The translations under genes and the position numbers were made by a program. The notes under the pieces are model-generated. The model ran no database searches and was not told where the DNA came from. It worked only from the letters and a program-made list of their open reading frames with translations. Below, in pieces: positions 47,567-55,455 of a stretch of DNA of 64,000 nucleotides. The first letter of the stretch is position 1. Each line of letters starts with the position of its first letter. The stretch comes from an uncultured Clostridia bacterium (GTDB lineage: Bacteria > Bacillota > Clostridia > Christensenellales > Pumilibacteraceae): NCBI GenBank assembly GCA_947581755.1, contig CANPVN010000001.1, forward strand, positions 62,001 through 126,000, written 5' to 3'.

Positions 47567-47595
47567 TTGACAGTAGGACAATTTTATGGTATAGT
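47567..47595 (+). promoter_or_regulatory. Promoter of the sigma factor gene
   Basis: TTGACA at 47567-47572 and TATAGT at 47590-47595, 17 bases apart, a housekeeping type. The promoter-like block of the downstream intergenic repeats is not present here, so direct self-activation is not suggested. Confidence 0.7.
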
Positions 47596-47642: not shown

Positions 47643-48185
47643 ATGTCGAAATATCTCGGACAAGTTAATCGATGTTTGATGAGGATAAAACAAGGCGACG
47701 AATCTCGGTACAGAGAATTATTCGACTTGACTTTTAACCACCTCAAAGGAATAGCAAAAATGTATTTATGCAACAAATCATATTGCGACGATGTTGTAAT
47801 GGAGACTTACGAGAGGGTAATGAAGTACATAAATACATTTGACGAGAGACAGAATGGATATAATTGGTTGTGTCAGATAACAAAGAGGGTAGCGTATGCA
47901 ACCAATTCCGAAAATCGTATTTTCGACAATGCGAAAGAAATAGAGGAAACCGATATTTGTGATGACTTTTTTGGAAAAACGGATCAAAGTTTGGAGCTTG
48001 GCAATATTATCGATAAACTCGACCCCGAAGATAAGACGATAGTTATTTCGTACTATTATTTGGATATGACCTATGAAGAGATAGGAAAGAAAATGGGAAA
48101 AACAAAATCGGCGGTACATAAGCGATTAAAGATTGTTTTAAGAAAGTTAAAGAAAAAATTACAAGAAGGAAACTTTGATCAATAA
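47643..48185 (+). CDS. Sigma-70 family (ECF-type) RNA polymerase sigma factor
   Basis: 180 residues with region 2 (about 20-85: DESRYRELFDLTFNHLKGIAKMYL and MYLCNKSYCDDVVMETYERVMKYINTF) and region 4 (about 120-172: LDPEDKTIVISYYYLDMTYEEIGKKMGKTKSAVHKRLK). Regions 1 and 3 are absent, as in ECF factors. GAGG precedes the ATG. It lies directly before a one-helix membrane protein that could be its anti-sigma partner, and before the lipoprotein array. Confidence 0.88.
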   Translation: MSKYLGQVNRCLMRIKQGDESRYRELFDLTFNHLKGIAKMYLCNKSYCDDVVMETYERVMKYINTFDERQNGYNWLCQITKRVAYATNSENRIFDNAKEIEETDICDDFFGKTDQSLELGNIIDKLDPEDKTIVISYYYLDMTYEEIGKKMGKTKSAVHKRLKIVLRKLKKKLQEGNFDQ

Positions 48186-48248
48186 AATAAGATATGTATT
48201 ATTAGTAAAACAACCTAAGGAGAAAAAAAGTATTAGTCGGGAGTAATT

Positions 48249-48905
48249 ATGAAAGATAACGACATTCATAAATTGATAGAACAACAAGAGAAAGAAAGAA
48301 AAGCCGAGTTGTATGCGGAGTTTGAACAAAAACATAATATAACTGCCGAACAGCCTGACAAACGAAAATACGCAATAAAAATAGCGTCTTGCGCGGCGGC
48401 AGCCGTGGTGATAATTTGTTTGATTGTTTCTTTGCCTTTTATAATGCAAAATAACATAAAAAATTCAACGAGATATTGTTCGGTAAATGATTGTATTGCA
48501 GAAGATGCAAATTTTACGCTTCAAGAATATGCGGCTAATAATAATTTGCCTCTTTTATATGTTGATTGGTACGATATTGCCGATGAAATTCAGACAAAGA
48601 TATTTGTAAATAAAGATGACAGAGAAGATATTATATTTTTTCAAGAGAATATAATCAATGGTCAGAATGGAATTATAGTTGAATTATATATAACAAAGGA
48701 AAATGTCGAAGTGGATTTTATCTCATCATTTGAAGAGCGATGCGGTAGGGCATCTACAATTAAAGATGTATGTGTAAGTTGGAATTTTAGGAATTCGTTC
48801 GGATTAGCGGTATTTGTATATAAAGGATATAAATACTATTTAATATTAGAAGATATCGCCGATGAAAATGTAATTACCGATATAATTGAGGAAATGATAC
48901 CTTAG
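48249..48905 (+). CDS. One-helix membrane protein, possible anti-sigma factor
   Basis: 218 residues: a charged N-terminal cytoplasmic part of about 45 residues rich in Glu and Lys, one membrane helix (about 48-70), and an extracytoplasmic domain of about 145 residues that I do not recognise. GGGAG precedes the ATG. The position 63 bases after an ECF sigma gene and the topology suggest that it holds the sigma factor at the membrane. No zinc anti-sigma motif (HxxxCxxC) is visible, so this remains inference. Confidence 0.6.
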   Translation: MKDNDIHKLIEQQEKERKAELYAEFEQKHNITAEQPDKRKYAIKIASCAAAAVVIICLIVSLPFIMQNNIKNSTRYCSVNDCIAEDANFTLQEYAANNNLPLLYVDWYDIADEIQTKIFVNKDDREDIIFFQENIINGQNGIIVELYITKENVEVDFISSFEERCGRASTIKDVCVSWNFRNSFGLAVFVYKGYKYYLILEDIADENVITDIIEEMIP

Positions 48906-48927: not shown

Positions 48928-48956
48928 TCCCTCGTCTTAAGGCGGGGCTTTTTTTT
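48928..48956 (+). terminator. Terminator after the anti-sigma-like gene
   Basis: CCCTCGTCTT and AAGGCGGGG form an imperfect stem (one bulge, one G-T pair), followed by eight T. Confidence 0.75.
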
Positions 48957-49030
48957 GCACAAAAATGCTTAGTGTAAAATTTTTACAGATCGGGAAACTT
49001 TGCCTTATATTTTTCGATATATATTAGTGA
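48955..49030 (+). repeat. Intergenic module, copy A
   Basis: About 75 bases conserved with copies B (near 51192-51268) and C (near 53300-53374). The core GGGAAACTT, CTTATATTTTTCGATATATATTAGTGA is nearly identical in all three. In this copy TTTACA (48982-48987) and TATATT (49006-49011) are 18 bases apart and would fit a sigma-A promoter; GGGAAAC and CGATAT are 16 bases apart and would fit an ECF promoter. The preceding hairpin is its terminator-like half. Confidence 0.75.
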
Positions 49031-49129
49031 CAGGGGTAAAAAGCATATCTGTCCAAGATCAAGATGACGCCTATGTATGTCGAAGTTTGTAGACAGTAAA
49101 TCAAAGTTTACTTTTAAGGATGGTTTCTA

Positions 49130-49204
49130 TTGAAAAAGGCTGATTCCAAGCGCCGTATACTTTCTGTAATAAAAAGATATTTTAGAGGAGAGATTTTTGA
49201 ATGA
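49130..49204 (+). CDS. Short upstream ORF overlapping the lipoprotein start
   Basis: A 24-residue basic peptide from TTG at 49130 (KKADSKRRILSVIKR...) with AAGGATGG upstream; its TGA overlaps the lipoprotein ATG at 49201 (ATGA). It could couple translation or act as a leader. It is short and without known relatives, so it may be chance. Confidence 0.3.
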   Translation: MKKADSKRRILSVIKRYFRGEIFE

Positions 49205-50718
49205 TTAAAAAAGTTATAAGTATTATGGTTTTAATGCTGATAGTGTTTTCTTTGGCTGCGTGTGGAACAACGGGCGAAGTCGATTTGCACGCTAAACTTG
49301 ATGGTTTGCAAACGCAACTTGAGAGAATGGGGGATAAGTTGGCAAAAATGGAAGATGAGCTTAGTGAACGCAATTCCGCCATAGAGTATATGCGCGAGCA
49401 GATAGAAAAGCGCAATAAGATAATAGACGATTTGAAAAAAGAACTTTTAGACACTGTGCCGAGAGAGAATGAGTTCGGCATATGTTATACCTTGCAAGAG
49501 GCTTACGATTACGGATATTTAGCAAGAAAGGATTTGGAGCAAATCGCCTATTATCACAATAACCATAAATCATATCCCGAAAACTTGAACGAAGATATAG
49601 TGCAATCAATAAAAAAATCCTGGGCGAAAAAATTGAGAGATGAAGAAGCAGAGTATATACCGGAATACAAGGTTAGGATATGGGAATATTACGGAACTTA
49701 TAATGGGTGTGTAGTTGCAATAATAGATCGTATAGACGCACAGTACGCCGCTGTACATTTCTATAATCCAATGATAGTAGGTGGCGTAATTTTCGAATTT
49801 TACGGTTACGGACCGCGAATTTTTGTATGGAAAAAAACAAACACGGATAACACAAGTAAAATCAAAAATATAGAATTTGAAAGCGAACGATGTATTAATG
49901 AACTCTCTGATACAAAACCAAGAAATATAATAATAAATTCTCGTTCTGATTTTGATAAATTCTTAGATGAGAATTTAGTTGATAAGACCGAAAAACAACA
50001 GTTTGAACAATATGATAGGGGATTTTTTAATAACAATGCTCTTATTATTTGTTTGTATTGGGCAACGGATGCAAGACTTGAAACGAAGATAAAATATATA
50101 ATTTCTTATGATGATTGGATCTATATCGAAATAGAGTCTATAATTCCCGATCATTTGATTTTGGCAGACGGCTCTTTTGTAATGAATTCGGATAGATATT
50201 TTATCTTCGATATGGTTCAAGTAAAAAAATCCGATATAATCGGAATTAACGAGATAACATTAAGTATTGATACGGGAAATGGTTATACAAAGAGTGGAAA
50301 TGTCGAGTTTAACGTAGCATATAGCAATATGGATCTATGGAGAGAATACAAATTTAATGGTGTCTATATCAACAGCATAATTATGTCAATTAAGTCTTTG
50401 GATGTTATGAGTCAATGCCTCGAGGAATTCAAGTTTTCGTATGATGCTGAGTTCTTTGAAGAAAACTTCCTTATTGTTTTTATGGGGAGTAGAGGAAATG
50501 GCGGATCACAATTACAAAATATAGAAATGCAAATTAATGATAATATTGCCTCGATTAAAATAAATGCCAATAACGGAATTTTAGATGTTGTTAGAGAGTG
50601 GGCAATAGTACTTGAAGTAAAAAAGAAAGATTTTTCTTCGGTAAAAGAAATATTTTTGGAAACGGATTATTACAGACCTATTTCAATACTTATTAATTTT
50701 CAAAACTTATTAATGTAG
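49201..50718 (+). CDS. Lipoprotein 1 with coiled coil and two copies of a shared domain
   Basis: 505 residues. Lipobox LAAC with Cys about residue 21 gives a lipid-anchored outer-face protein. Residues about 28-80 are a coiled coil (KLDGLQTQLERMGDKL). About 93-208 hold a block (CYTLQEAYDYGYLARKDLEQIAYYHN... IFVWKK) also found in lipoprotein 4. Then come two copies of a domain of about 110 residues: about 240-360 (NIIINSRSDFDKFL...FFNNNALIICLYWATD) and about 395-495 (SIIMSIKSLDVMSQ...FFEENFLIVFM). This domain recalls PrcB_C, tentatively. Upstream lie module A and a short ORF. Confidence 0.7.
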   Translation: MIKKVISIMVLMLIVFSLAACGTTGEVDLHAKLDGLQTQLERMGDKLAKMEDELSERNSAIEYMREQIEKRNKIIDDLKKELLDTVPRENEFGICYTLQEAYDYGYLARKDLEQIAYYHNNHKSYPENLNEDIVQSIKKSWAKKLRDEEAEYIPEYKVRIWEYYGTYNGCVVAIIDRIDAQYAAVHFYNPMIVGGVIFEFYGYGPRIFVWKKTNTDNTSKIKNIEFESERCINELSDTKPRNIIINSRSDFDKFLDENLVDKTEKQQFEQYDRGFFNNNALIICLYWATDARLETKIKYIISYDDWIYIEIESIIPDHLILADGSFVMNSDRYFIFDMVQVKKSDIIGINEITLSIDTGNGYTKSGNVEFNVAYSNMDLWREYKFNGVYINSIIMSIKSLDVMSQCLEEFKFSYDAEFFEENFLIVFMGSRGNGGSQLQNIEMQINDNIASIKINANNGILDVVREWAIVLEVKKKDFSSVKEIFLETDYYRPISILINFQNLLM

Positions 50719-50726
50719 ACGAATTA

Positions 50727-51101
50727 TTGACGGAGCAAAATGATGAATTATTGACGGAGCAATTTGACTCTACCGATCCGAAAATTTTTTGGGAAGGGAA
50801 CATTGACGAGGATTTCGATGATGATCGGGTGGTGGTTGTTCTGAAAAGAACAAAGACATACCCGGAATTGAAAATCAGACATTTTGGGCTTGATAACGGA
50901 GAACGCCTGGAGTATCTTTGGTTTAGGCCCTATGGAGATCCGCCCTATGGAGATCCGCCCTCTGACTTCCGTCAAATATTAGTGATTTATCTCAAGCAAC
51001 ATGGGAAAGAAAAAGTACTTGAGGCGATAAAAGAATTGGAAAAGTTGAGTTTCATTAAAGTGGCAGTACCTAAGTATAATTATGGGACGATGGATAATTA
51101 A
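50727..51101 (+). CDS. Small acidic protein, possibly a subtilase prodomain-like orphan
   Basis: 124 residues from TTG at 50727 (no good ribosome site), 9 bases after lipoprotein 1. No signal peptide. DRVVVVLKRTKTYPELKIRHFGL, FRQILVIYLKQHGKEKVLEAIKELEKLSFIKVAVPKY has the strand-helix-strand order and closing motif (V..A.P.Y) of subtilase prodomains, but no protease follows. Two in-frame tandem duplications are visible: a 24-base one at its start (ELLTEQ repeated) and a 15-base one near 50930 (PYGDP repeated). It may be a remnant or an inhibitor-like protein; neither is proven. Confidence 0.45.
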   Translation: MTEQNDELLTEQFDSTDPKIFWEGNIDEDFDDDRVVVVLKRTKTYPELKIRHFGLDNGERLEYLWFRPYGDPPYGDPPSDFRQILVIYLKQHGKEKVLEAIKELEKLSFIKVAVPKYNYGTMDN

Positions 51102-51132
51102 AGTAGTAAAACGTTTACTTAATAATGAGCAA

Positions 51133-51270
51133 TGTTATTGAGGAATGAGTTAAGAAGTTTTATTACCTCGCTCTATGGCGAAGTTTTCCTTTTGCGCAAA
51201 ATTACTTAATTGCAAAATTTTTATAGATTGGGAAACTTGGCTTTATATTTTTCGATATATATTAGTGAAA
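51133..51270 (+). repeat. Intergenic module, copy B
   Basis: Matches copy C over about 140 bases, from TTATTGAGGAATGA through a degenerate hairpin (CTCGC...GGCGAAG) to the core GGGAAACTTGGCTTTATAT and CGATATATATTAGTGAAAGC. It lies 44 bases before lipoprotein 2. Confidence 0.75.
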
Positions 51271-51313
51271 GCAAAAAAGAAAGGTTGTATGATTAATCAA
51301 TTAGGAGGTAGAA

Positions 51314-52621
51314 ATGAAAAAAAGTATAATACCTATTTTATCTGTTGTTCTTTTAGTACTTTGTGTCGCCTGCAATCCGCACAGTGAAGATATAGCTGAG
51401 TATAAATACTTTGCAAAAGAGCAAATTACTTCTTATGTTCAAAAATCCGGTTTTCATAAAGAAAAGGATAAGTATATTTATGAGATCTTAGATGAATGTG
51501 TAGAGCAAATAGAATTATCGAATAGCAAAGAAAAAATAGATGCTACAGTGAATTCGGGGAAAGAAAAAATAATAAAAACATATAAAGACTTTGTCAAGAA
51601 TCAAATCATATCTCAGACTCAAAGATTTTATTATAATGATGAGTTGCTCGAAGCAATGGATGAAATCAAAGACAATTCAATAAGTCAAATAGAATCGGCA
51701 AACGACAAAAAAGAGATAGATTTAAAAATGTATTCGGCTCTAAAAGAAATATATAAGCAAATAAAAGAGGTAATGAAATTTGATAAGTCTATAGAATTTG
51801 AAAGCAAGAGATATGATGAAAAGCTACATGTTGAGACGCCTCAAAATATAATCATAAGATCTATCGAAGAAATGGAAAAGTTTTTAGAAGATTATAAGAT
51901 TTCCGAAGAAAATCGCTCTGCATTTGAGAACTATGATAAAGACTTTTTTAATAAATATGCACTGATTTTTAGCTTATATTGGGAATCGGGTGGAAATATC
52001 TCACGTCGAGTAGAAAATATTTATATAAGTGGAGAAAAAGTCTATATAGAAATAATGGGCATAGTCTCAGAGGAGGACTTTACGTCCGAAGGTTATGTCG
52101 TCTTAAATGAAGATGTTGAATTTAGATTTTACATTATAAAGATCAAGCAATCGGATATTGAAAATATAAAAGATGTTGAGTTATTTTCTACTTTCACAGG
52201 TGAAGAAAATCAAGGAGATGAAATTCAAGATTATGTTTTAAAAATAGCGGCAGATAAACAAGTTTATGCCAAAGATGAAGATATAGTTATTGATATTACT
52301 TTGGAAAATCGAAGCGGCGCAGATGTGGAGATTGCTTACTATCTGTTGTTTTATCCGGAGAGTTCCACAGGACAATTCCCCGAAATAGAGCTTGCTCCGG
52401 TAACTACAGAGCTTGCTCCGGTAACTACAAAGAGACTTTTTAAAAATGGTAATACAATTCATGAGACAGCTCGTTTGGGCGGGTGCTTTTTAGTTGGACA
52501 TCATGAATTAAAATATAGAGCAGTATTTTACCTAACTTGGAAGATGACGGAATTTGGATATGAAACTGGGGACAACGGAGTTGAGGTTTGGTCAAACGTC
52601 ATAAAATTTGCGGTTAATTAA
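51314..52621 (+). CDS. Lipoprotein 2 with helical repeats, shared domain and Ig-like end
   Basis: 435 residues. Lipobox CVAC (Cys about residue 20). Residues about 28-155 are helical, of two similar units (AKEQITSYVQKSGFHKEKDKYIYEI and the following ISQIESANDKKEID part). About 175-290 is the shared domain (NIIIRSIEEMEKFLEDYK...FFNKYALIFSLYWES). The C-terminal 130 residues look like a beta sandwich (ADKQVYAKDEDIVIDITLENRSGADVEI), perhaps BsuPI-like. A perfect 21-base tandem repeat (ELAPVTT twice, 52389-52430) lies in it. AGGAGG precedes the ATG. Function unknown. Confidence 0.68.
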   Translation: MKKSIIPILSVVLLVLCVACNPHSEDIAEYKYFAKEQITSYVQKSGFHKEKDKYIYEILDECVEQIELSNSKEKIDATVNSGKEKIIKTYKDFVKNQIISQTQRFYYNDELLEAMDEIKDNSISQIESANDKKEIDLKMYSALKEIYKQIKEVMKFDKSIEFESKRYDEKLHVETPQNIIIRSIEEMEKFLEDYKISEENRSAFENYDKDFFNKYALIFSLYWESGGNISRRVENIYISGEKVYIEIMGIVSEEDFTSEGYVVLNEDVEFRFYIIKIKQSDIENIKDVELFSTFTGEENQGDEIQDYVLKIAADKQVYAKDEDIVIDITLENRSGADVEIAYYLLFYPESSTGQFPEIELAPVTTELAPVTTKRLFKNGNTIHETARLGGCFLVGHHELKYRAVFYLTWKMTEFGYETGDNGVEVWSNVIKFAVN

Positions 52622-52706
52622 GTATTTTTTCTTATAATGCGCCTTTTTCGATAAAGAAACAAATATCTATATTACTTTAAATCACAAGATAATGCGGTAG
52701 AAATTT

Positions 52707-53150
52707 ATGAATAACAAGAACCGAATTTTTAAAAAGGCAATCGGAATAATACAAGAGATTTACTCCTTACTTATAGTTATATACTGTAGCTATAACATTC
52801 TGCTTGCGTTTGTTACCGAAAATCAATATTGGAACGTAGAAGAGATTTTTCTGTTTACTTGTTACGGTATATTCATTATTATAAATATAATACTGTTTAT
52901 TCTGGGTGAACTTATTTCTAAAAATGAAATCGAGGGCGCGGCTTCATCATATATCAATAAGCAAGATGGAATAAAAAAAGAAGTTTTTATTTTAGTTTTG
53001 AATTGTATATTTTTCTTGATTGCATTAGCTGTTTTCCTCGTAATAACTTGGAACTTACTGACTTTTTTTACTGTCCTCATTTTTCTGCTTACATTTACAC
53101 CATGCCTTATAATTGTCATTCTTACAAGCATTTCTCTAAAATTCAGATAA
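52707..53150 (+). CDS. Small four-helix membrane protein
   Basis: 147 residues with four hydrophobic segments (about 17-36, 47-67, 90-113, 116-142). Not a recognised family. No clear ribosome site (GGTAG upstream). Within the lipoprotein array but without a copy of the module directly before it, so it may be read through from lipoprotein 2. Confidence 0.55.
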   Translation: MNNKNRIFKKAIGIIQEIYSLLIVIYCSYNILLAFVTENQYWNVEEIFLFTCYGIFIIINIILFILGELISKNEIEGAASSYINKQDGIKKEVFILVLNCIFFLIALAVFLVITWNLLTFFTVLIFLLTFTPCLIIVILTSISLKFR

Positions 53151-53230
53151 TTGTTGCCCTAACAAAATAAATTTTTATTATAGATATAATTAAATTACAA
53201 AAATGGATGAGGTACCGTCCGTTCTTTGTA

Positions 53231-53380
53231 TTTCCGATGTTATTGAGGAATGAATAAATAAGTTTTATTACTTCGCCATAGGGCGCGGTTTTTCTTTGAG
53301 CAAAATTACTTAATTGCAAAATTTTTACAGATTGGGAAACTTGGCTTTATATTTTTCGATATATATTAGTGAAAGCAAAG
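53231..53380 (+). repeat. Intergenic module, copy C
   Basis: Nearly the same as copy B: TTATTGAGGAATGA, then CTTCGCCATAGGGCGCGG as a hairpin with a following T run, then TTGCAAAATTTTTACAG, GGGAAACTTGGCTTTATAT and CGATATATATTAGTGAAAGC. It lies about 120 bases before lipoprotein 3. This stretch 53151-53500 otherwise holds only a short ORF. Confidence 0.75.
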
Positions 53381-53409
53381 AAAAGAACGACTAAGGTGGT
53401 ATTAAAAAC

Positions 53410-53500: not shown

Positions 53501-54322
53501 ATGAATAAAAAACTTATATTCATTCTAATTCAGTGCTTGGTTCTTATTCTATTTTGCTGTTCTTGCACTCCGTCAGTTAATGAGTTGAATGAGTATGGCG
53601 AAGAGATAGATAAATTGAATTTGCGAATAGGTGAGTTACAGAGCCGATACGAGGATTTGCAAAACAAATTAGATAATGCAGATAAAGAAATCAAAGAGAG
53701 TCGTCAAAAGCAAATTGAATATCAAAATGAAATTGATTTATTAAAAGCAAAAGTAGCCAATCTTTCGGGAGCAGCTCCGAAATTTACCGAACAAAGTCCG
53801 CATTTTCAATCAGAGTATTATGATGAAGTCATCAGATTTGATCATCATAACGATGCTAACGTATCTTTTAATGGATTTATTCGATATTGTATGAATGAGT
53901 TATCTTCTTATAACTTGATATTTCTGGCTCCCATAGAAAGCGAATATGATATACATCCCAATATGCACAGAACTTACGCTGTATTAACAGACAATAGGAC
54001 GACCGACAGCACTCCTATTATTTACGAACGACTTATGATGTATTCGGAAGTTTTGGGAAGCAATGACAAACTAACGCCTCAAGAAGAGGGACCGATATCT
54101 TGGAGTATCGATATGGAGATTTATATAAAGCCCGTTGAAAAGCCGGTGACATTAAAAAATAATATCGAACTTCGGTTTGGAATTATTGCAAATAGAAATT
54201 ACATTAACATTTTTGTGGAAGGGAAAATTATTGCAACTTGTTATTATAGAGAAAATGTTTATGTCTCGGTAGGTTGGTACGAAAACTATTTTATAAATAA
54301 TTTATGTTACTCTTATAAATAA
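53501..54322 (+). CDS. Lipoprotein 3 with coiled coil
   Basis: 273 residues from ATG 53501 (AAGGAG upstream; a TTG at 53462 is a false longer start). Lipobox CSC near residue 22. Residues about 30-85 form a coiled coil (LNLRIGELQSRYEDLQNKLDNADKEI). The remaining 180 residues form a domain I do not recognise; it lacks the shared domain of lipoproteins 1, 2 and 4. Similar coiled-coil spacers after the lipid anchor are seen in lipoprotein 1. Confidence 0.6.
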   Translation: MNKKLIFILIQCLVLILFCCSCTPSVNELNEYGEEIDKLNLRIGELQSRYEDLQNKLDNADKEIKESRQKQIEYQNEIDLLKAKVANLSGAAPKFTEQSPHFQSEYYDEVIRFDHHNDANVSFNGFIRYCMNELSSYNLIFLAPIESEYDIHPNMHRTYAVLTDNRTTDSTPIIYERLMMYSEVLGSNDKLTPQEEGPISWSIDMEIYIKPVEKPVTLKNNIELRFGIIANRNYINIFVEGKIIATCYYRENVYVSVGWYENYFINNLCYSYK

Positions 54323-54375
54323 TCTAATGAAAGCAAAAAAGAAAGGTTGTATGATTAATCAATTAGGAGGTAGAA

Positions 54376-55455
54376 ATGAAAAAAAGTATAATAATACATA
54401 TTTTATCTGTTGTTCTTTTAATATTTTGTGTCGCCTGTAATCCGCACAGTGAAGATATAACTGAGTATAAAGGCATTGCGAAAGAGCAAATTACTTCTTA
54501 TGTTCAAAAATCCGGTTTTCATAAAGAAAAGGATAAGTTTATTTATGAAATCCTGGATGAATATGTGGATCAAATAGAATTGTCGAATAGTAAAGAGGAA
54601 ATAGACAATTTAGTGAAGTCCGGAAAGGAAAGAATTATAAAAACATATAAAAATTATATGATTGTAAGTCTAACGACATATAAAAATTATAAAATCGAAA
54701 GTAATTTTTATAGCGGAGCAAATTTTATAAAATTAATAGGTGAAGTAGATAGTTTTATGGCATCGAATTTTAATGATAAAGCAAGTATTGATGTTGAATA
54801 TAAAAAATGCCTTAAAGAAATGGATTCAATAGAAATCTTGGAAGTGAGCGGCAATTTTTACTCTTTGGAGGACGCCTATAAAAATGAAAAATTGACAAAA
54901 GATGACCTTATTTTGATATCTAAGGATCAATTCGAAGTAGAGGAATTGGATCTAAAAACACAGACGGCAATCAAAACAGATTTTTTAAAGTTGATTGACG
55001 AAAAAGAATATTCTGTTGATGATATTGTTATCTCTCATTTTTTCGGTAAATATCAAGGTTGTTATGTCGTTCAAATAAAAGATAAGTATCATGATTATCC
55101 TGCGGAATCATTGCAATGTGTAATTTCAGATATCGTTATTAATTATAGCGGACCGAAATTATTGGTATGGGAAAAAACAAATACGGATAACACAAGTAAA
55201 ATCAAAAATATAGAATTTGAAAACGAACGATGTATTAATGAACTCTCTGATACAAAACCAAGAAATATAATAATAAATTCTCGTTTTGATTTTGATAAAT
55301 TCTTAGATGAGAATTTAGTTGATAAGACCGAAAAACAACAGTTTGAACAATATGATAGGGGATTTTTTAATAACAATGCTCTTATTATTTGTTTGTATTG
55401 GGCAACGGATAAAAAACTTTATCCCGATGTTAATTTTATTGCAATAGCCGACTGA
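54376..55455 (+). CDS. Lipoprotein 4, mosaic of lipoproteins 2 and 1, truncated
   Basis: 359 residues. The N terminus and the 48 bases before it copy lipoprotein 2 (KKSII..ILSVVLL, NPHSEDI-EYK, AKEQITSYVQKSGFHKEKDK). The middle (about 155-263) has the SLEDAYKNEKLTKDDLILIS...LLVWEK block of lipoprotein 1, and 246 bases from 55165 are 242/246 identical to 49825-50070. The shared domain breaks off after CLYWATDKKLY and ends within eight codons, so the domain is truncated compared with lipoprotein 1. It is either a functional short version or a decaying recombinant. It lacks its own module and may be read with lipoprotein 3. Confidence 0.65.
   Translation: MKKSIIIHILSVVLLIFCVACNPHSEDITEYKGIAKEQITSYVQKSGFHKEKDKFIYEILDEYVDQIELSNSKEEIDNLVKSGKERIIKTYKNYMIVSLTTYKNYKIESNFYSGANFIKLIGEVDSFMASNFNDKASIDVEYKKCLKEMDSIEILEVSGNFYSLEDAYKNEKLTKDDLILISKDQFEVEELDLKTQTAIKTDFLKLIDEKEYSVDDIVISHFFGKYQGCYVVQIKDKYHDYPAESLQCVISDIVINYSGPKLLVWEKTNTDNTSKIKNIEFENERCINELSDTKPRNIIINSRFDFDKFLDENLVDKTEKQQFEQYDRGFFNNNALIICLYWATDKKLYPDVNFIAIAD
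55165..55410 (+). repeat. Second copy of a 246-bp block shared with 49825-50070
   Basis: The block aligns without gaps at an offset of 5340 bases and differs at only four positions (98%). Sequence before and after it is much less alike. The two copies lie in the same orientation in lipoprotein genes 1 and 4. Confidence 0.9.

Follow-up and report, generated by a model that had tools for sequence, protein, structure and literature searches.

A block of about 59 bases, present in three near-identical copies upstream of lipoprotein genes and found nowhere else in the genome, is very likely a promoter recognised by the ECF-type sigma factor encoded at 47643-48185 of the window (the whole stretch of 64,000 nucleotides that was analysed; all features described in it lie on the forward strand). 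Judging from the sequences of relatives, the same circuit is very probably kept in related uncultured gut Clostridia. The system, an uncharacterised ECF sigma factor with a putative anti-sigma factor, is a new member of a known general type.

The three-copy block described in the earlier note was borne out. The 39-base pattern GGGAAACTTNNNNTTATATTTTTCGATATATATTAGTGA was matched exactly at 48992-49030, 51230-51268 and 53334-53372, as opposed to no occurrence in 100 shuffled sequences, and a search of the 1.67 Mb genome for the 16-base core CGATATATATTAGTGA with up to two mismatches returned only the three blocks. The seed originally put forward for such a search, GGGAAACTT-N16-TTTCGATAT, gave no match; it was mis-spaced, the true spacing being GGGAAAC-N16-CGATAT, equivalent to GGAAAC-N17-GATA. 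The predicted ECF promoter of block 1 (48976-49034) consists of an A/T tract (48976-48987), GGAAAC (48993-48998) and GATA (49016-49019), with a predicted transcription start at about 49026-49029; the corresponding boxes of the promoters predicted in block 2 (51214-51272) and block 3 (53318-53376) lie at 51231-51236 and 51254-51257, and at 53335-53340 and 53358-53361, respectively. Blocks 2 and 3 are contained in a longer recent duplication (51132-51281 versus 53237-53387, 152 bp, 90% identity), so that the similarity upstream of these two is partly due to duplication; alignments of block 1 with these two extend over 82-123 bp, at 80-87% identity.

As had also been noted, each block stands upstream of a lipobox-bearing gene: lipoprotein gene 1 (49201-50718, 505 aa, lipobox SLAAC), gene 2 (51314-52621, 435 aa, lipobox LCVAC) and gene 3 (53501-54322, 273 aa, a coiled coil followed by a C-terminal domain). 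The products of genes 1 and 2 are 36% identical over 133 aa. A fourth lipoprotein gene (54376-55455) has no block of its own and is a mosaic of genes 2 and 1: its start (54325-54651) is 89% identical to 51263-51586 in gene 2, and its end (55149-55419) is 96% identical to 49809-50079 in gene 1. The mosaic (54325-55455) points to recombination within the cluster, and gene 4 is probably read through from block 3.

Overlooked at first were the genes immediately upstream of the three blocks, and with them a diverged fourth site. The gene at 47643-48185 encodes a protein of 180 aa with sigma regions 2 and 4 only, an assignment based on TIGR02937, Pfam and orthologues. It scored 71.8 bits against TIGR02937 (sigma70-ECF; cut-off 42.9), and Sigma70_r4_2, r4 and r2 of Pfam all exceeded their cut-offs; among the best 25 matches listed, no curated equivalog was above its cut-off. 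A probable sigma-A promoter precedes the gene at 47567-47595 (TTGACA-N17-TATAGT, with a TG before the -10 and 11 of 12 consensus matches), and no GGAAAC-N17-GATA site was found upstream of it in the window.

The next gene (48249-48905, 218 aa) encodes a putative membrane anti-sigma factor, composed of a short cytoplasmic helix, one transmembrane helix and an extracellular beta domain, the last covered by an AlphaFold model with a pLDDT of about 90 or more over residues 81-216. A short cytoplasmic part, a single membrane pass and an extracellular domain are the usual layout of membrane anti-sigma factors. All six genomes that carry the sigma factor encode a single-pass membrane protein beside it, with one gene between the two in G025, and two homologues of the putative anti-sigma factor have weak matches to DUF4367. 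Its position, its topology and this weak similarity suggest that the product of 48249-48905 is the anti-sigma factor of the adjacent sigma.

In relatives, a gene between or near those for sigma and anti-sigma often encodes a secreted protein, about 270 aa long and bearing motifs such as NACGAVAGSEIVAFYDKY (L012, 703-1509; the gene after sigma in L162, L163 and L166; L011, 12505-13341). By eye it resembles papain or C39 peptidases and might act on the anti-sigma factor; the one member tested had no Pfam family above cut-off.

The fourth predicted promoter copy (48151-48209; GGAAAC at 48168-48173, GATA at 48191-48194) overlaps the codons for EGNF at the end of the sigma gene and is directed towards the anti-sigma gene. 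Its sequence, GGAAACTTTGATCAATAAAATAAGATA at 48168, matched the motif profile with an E-value of 6.4e-6, the site itself being part of the training set. A site at the sigma/anti-sigma boundary was seen in all six sigma-positive genomes: in G025 and G026 it likewise overlaps the end of the sigma gene (DGNF), and in G028, G021 and G022 it lies just past the sigma stop codon, in a more degenerate form in the latter two. Junction sites were also observed beside distant sigma homologues, namely GGGAAACTTTAAGCAAATTCCGCGATATATATTG in G223, a member of another family, where the spacer is shorter by one, GTAAAC-N17-GGTATATAG in G277 and GTGAAC-N17-GGTATATATAG in G050. Given that the window has no site of this kind ahead of the sigma gene, the arrangement would most simply be explained by negative feedback via the anti-sigma factor.

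The anatomy of the motif was examined in 22 tabulated sites. In all of them the -35 box (GGAAAC or a variant) is separated by exactly 17 bases from GATA, GGTA or GATT, and the sequence of the spacer is free. The -35 box contains AAC in at least 21 of the 22 sites, its C being invariant, and an A/T tract like AAAATTTTTA lies 5' of it; this tract and the two boxes are the only parts kept between species. The -10 is C/T-GATA or CGGTA and thus differs from the textbook CGT of ECF promoters, a feature no longer regarded as defining (PMC8103513). At most sites the start codon follows GATA by about 27-56 bases, and by up to 181 at lipoprotein gene 1, the leader of which is about 170 bases long. When 13 spacer lengths were allowed in a scan of nine genomes, 13 matches were obtained, of which 11 were regulon sites, ten of them directly at the fixed distance and one, in G028, via a second GATA just downstream. 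The matches with other spacer lengths were one in G026 and one in the window's own genome, and three genomes of the same genus without a sigma orthologue yielded none.

The occurrence of the motif was compared with that of the sigma factor in metagenome-assembled genomes of the family. Sigma orthologues of 51-75% identity were found in five other genomes, representing five other species, which together with the window's genome (G000) form the sigma-positive set (G000, G021, G022, G025, G026 and G028). In each of these five species, whose sigma orthologues all reach the 50% identity threshold, the same motif occurs with its 17-base spacing; the 68 genomes of the family that lack an orthologue at this level contain no match of equal strength. 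A sequence-only profile (R1), built from six sites and run on 74 family genomes, gave matches at E<1e-3 only in G000, G021, G022, G026 and G028, all of which have a sigma orthologue of at least 51% identity. G026 and G025, neither of which had contributed to its training, took the top two places among the 70 untrained genomes, an outcome with a chance probability of 1 in 2415. With a refined profile (R2) the best E-values were 6e-12 to 4e-6 in sigma-positive genomes and 0.033-0.66 in three sigma-negative genomes of the same genus, a separation that is partly built in because the training sites came from all six sigma-positive genomes. R2 also picked up sites that had not been used to train it, ahead of an ABC/FtsX transporter operon of G025 and ahead of lipoprotein genes of G021 (C88 and C45).

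Several other matches were rejected. A loose-pattern match at G000:C13:17714 was taken as chance, as were R2 matches in contigs C23 and C32 of the same genome, which fall in long open frames. Matches of R1 in G015 and G016 belong to a different conserved sequence, AAATTTCTACAAACAGGAAAAATTTTCGAYGTTTTTCRTGTAGATATAAAT, which has a TCTAC/GTAGA stem (G015:C1:103298 and G016:C56:11251; L105 and L104) and which we presume to be reminiscent of a Cas12a-type repeat.

The idea that such sites occur only before lipoprotein genes held for 15 of the 19 targets assigned in six genomes, the anti-sigma gene being left out of this count; it failed for the other four and for the junction site at the anti-sigma gene. 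A loose lipobox test picked 11 of 134 background open reading frames, which gives the enrichment a binomial probability of 1.5e-13, a value that includes one target called by eye (G022_C3b) and is overstated, because many of the targets are paralogues and the counts are not independent. Of the four remaining targets, two are in G025, namely a gene for a secreted protein with the anti-sigma gene behind it and a transporter operon; the other two, in G026 and G021, encode membrane proteins. No lipoprotein gene stands directly behind a site in G025, where the lipoprotein comes after the transporter operon: one of the promoters in the sigma cluster is followed by a tandem pair of FtsX-domain ABC transporter genes and then by the lipoprotein gene (L012, 2726-7221). 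These FtsX transporters hint at a role in antimicrobial-peptide or envelope stress.

The lipoprotein encoded in the G025 sigma cluster is a homologue of lipoprotein 2 (44% identity over 210 aa). An orthologue of lipoprotein 3 (46-47%) is encoded in G028 on the opposite strand, at a distance of about 3 kb from the sigma gene, and despite this rearrangement it retains GGGAAACTTTTCTTTTGCTTTATAGATAGATATAAGTGA upstream (GGGAAACTT...GATA). No Pfam domain exceeded its cut-off in the lipoproteins. A decoy or feedback model, in which the lipoproteins would share the sensor domain of the anti-sigma factor, found no support in a comparison of profiles (hhalign probability 0.7 of 100, E 0.087). Fold searches with models of the putative anti-sigma factor and a lipoprotein gave weak matches, and the RseB C-terminal domain was common to the two sets (Z 6.7 and 5.5), at scores too low to assign or dismiss a known fold for either protein.

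The earlier note had left two kinds of promoter open, of which the ECF type has gained from the adjacent sigma gene, the fixed spacing, the co-occurrence across genomes and the lipoprotein targets. The other type would make the blocks ordinary housekeeping sigma-A promoters (TTTACA-N18-TATATT), alike through recent duplication. Their fit to the sigma-A consensus is considerable, with 10, 9 and 10 of 12 matches at the three blocks, and blocks 2 and 3 do lie inside a 90% identical duplication; however, relatives do not conserve the -10: they have CAAAAA, TTGCTT, CCTTTT and similar sequences at the offset of TATATT, and they keep GGAAAC and GATA at 17 bases. The occurrence of the sites also tracks the ECF sigma factor, and sigma-A-like matches are not in excess in the region (50, compared to 43.5 in shuffles). 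We therefore regard a sigma-A identity as very unlikely.

A slightly smaller chance is given to the view that the blocks are not promoters kept for their own function but a mobile or recombination element in several copies, a cassette of terminator and promoter by which new surface genes are seeded. The 152 bp shared at 90% by blocks 2 and 3, the breakpoint of the gene 4 leader duplication (54325), which coincides with the 3' end of the block (51263), and the several near-identical copies present also in G021 and G022 would all agree with such an origin. Against it, the genome holds three copies and one diverged copy, no inverted ends or transposase were noted, and conservation between species is limited to the A/T tract, the -35 and the -10, with a free spacer between the boxes. 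The hairpins, which had been taken for three terminators, lend this reading little: the first (48930-48947, 7 pairs, -9.4 kcal/mol, followed by T8) is a credible terminator which by its position would end the anti-sigma transcript, but the second, a weak structure of 5 pairs upstream of block 2 (51168-51181), and the third fold no better than shuffled sequences (z -0.40 and -0.22). The notion of a repeated terminator-plus-promoter cassette is thus weak, with two of its three hairpins unconvincing and the sites of relatives devoid of the block's other parts. Least probable of all, and scarcely to be expected, is that the genes share some other regulator, for which the block would be the target in DNA or RNA, such as a repressor operator or a 5' leader RNA. 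GGAAAC...GATA could in principle be bound by a protein, and the leader of lipoprotein gene 1 is of the length given above; yet two boxes at one fixed distance, a free spacer, an A/T tract and a nearby ribosome-binding site make up the anatomy of a promoter, and it is with a sigma gene that the motif co-occurs.

Under the preferred reading of the block as an ECF promoter, the sigma gene would be expressed at a basal level from its sigma-A promoter and its product kept inactive by the membrane anti-sigma factor (48249-48905). An envelope signal sensed by the extracellular domain of the latter would free the sigma factor, which together with RNA polymerase would initiate transcription at the arrangement of UP-like A/T tract, GGAAAC, 17 bases and GATA, that is, at the three lipoprotein promoters and at the one in the sigma/anti-sigma junction. 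As the junction promoter would raise the anti-sigma factor and not the sigma factor, the loop is proposed to shut itself down. Recognition of the sites by this sigma, the identity of the anti-sigma factor, the signal and the feedback are all inferred from sequence.

The classical ECF sigma factors of Firmicutes with membrane anti-sigma factors include SigW, SigX, SigM and SigV of Bacillus subtilis, paired with RsiW, RsiX, etc. The present system shares with the Firmicutes ECF systems a two-domain sigma encoded next to a single-pass membrane protein, a -35 with AAC, a spacing of about 16-17 bases and envelope targets (hallmarks in PMC8103513). It differs from the classical ones in its -10 (C/TGATA or CGGTA, compared to CGT), in having no self-type promoter visible upstream of the sigma gene, in its mostly uncharacterised lipoprotein targets, and in the lack of a curated sigma equivalog among the best 25 matches listed. 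A self-type promoter upstream of sigma is not required for ECF membership, since about 55% of ECFs are autoregulated (PMC8103513).

The closest parallel in wiring is sigH-rshA of Corynebacterium glutamicum, in which housekeeping promoters read the sigma gene, a sigma-dependent promoter drives the anti-sigma gene only, and negative feedback via the anti-sigma factor was demonstrated experimentally (PMC3489674). Here too a sigma gene with a probable housekeeping promoter is combined with a separate, predicted sigma-type promoter before the anti-sigma gene. The sigma and anti-sigma factors are different ones, the -35 here is located within the final sigma codons or immediately behind them, and a lipoprotein regulon takes the place of disulphide and heat stress. 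Clostridia have further ECF systems in SigV, CsfT and CsfU of Clostridioides difficile, for which no promoter consensus had been identified as of 2020 and of which SigV has a link to lysozyme resistance (PMC7438776).

GGAAAC-N17-GATA would be a sharply defined promoter code for this uncharacterised ECF sigma factor of uncultured Clostridia. By means of it, lipoproteins that defy annotation by other means, together with the FtsX-type ABC transporters of one species, can be assigned to one envelope-signal regulon, and the question of the envelope signal becomes testable. With its junction promoter, the sigma system would offer a compact example of wiring that leads to shut-off and not to self-amplification. 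A wider proposal, which we hold as tentative and somewhat less likely to be right than wrong, is that of an undescribed, order-wide ECF circuit of uncultured gut Clostridia with built-in negative feedback. In such a circuit the -35 of the anti-sigma promoter would lie in or directly behind the last sigma codons (Gly-Asn-Phe being encoded by GGAAACTTT), an active sigma would make its inhibitor and not itself, and the promoter would be copied along with duplicated lipoprotein genes to yield species-specific surface regulons.

A separate observation concerns the junctions behind more remote sigma homologues (L023-L042, 29-39% identity, genera g2 and g4). These carry other recurring motifs, e.g. 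GAAAAAAC...CTATTTATTAGTA, TTGGAAAAATTA...GATATAGC and GGACAAAAC...CGATATACC, as if promoter and sigma had changed together.
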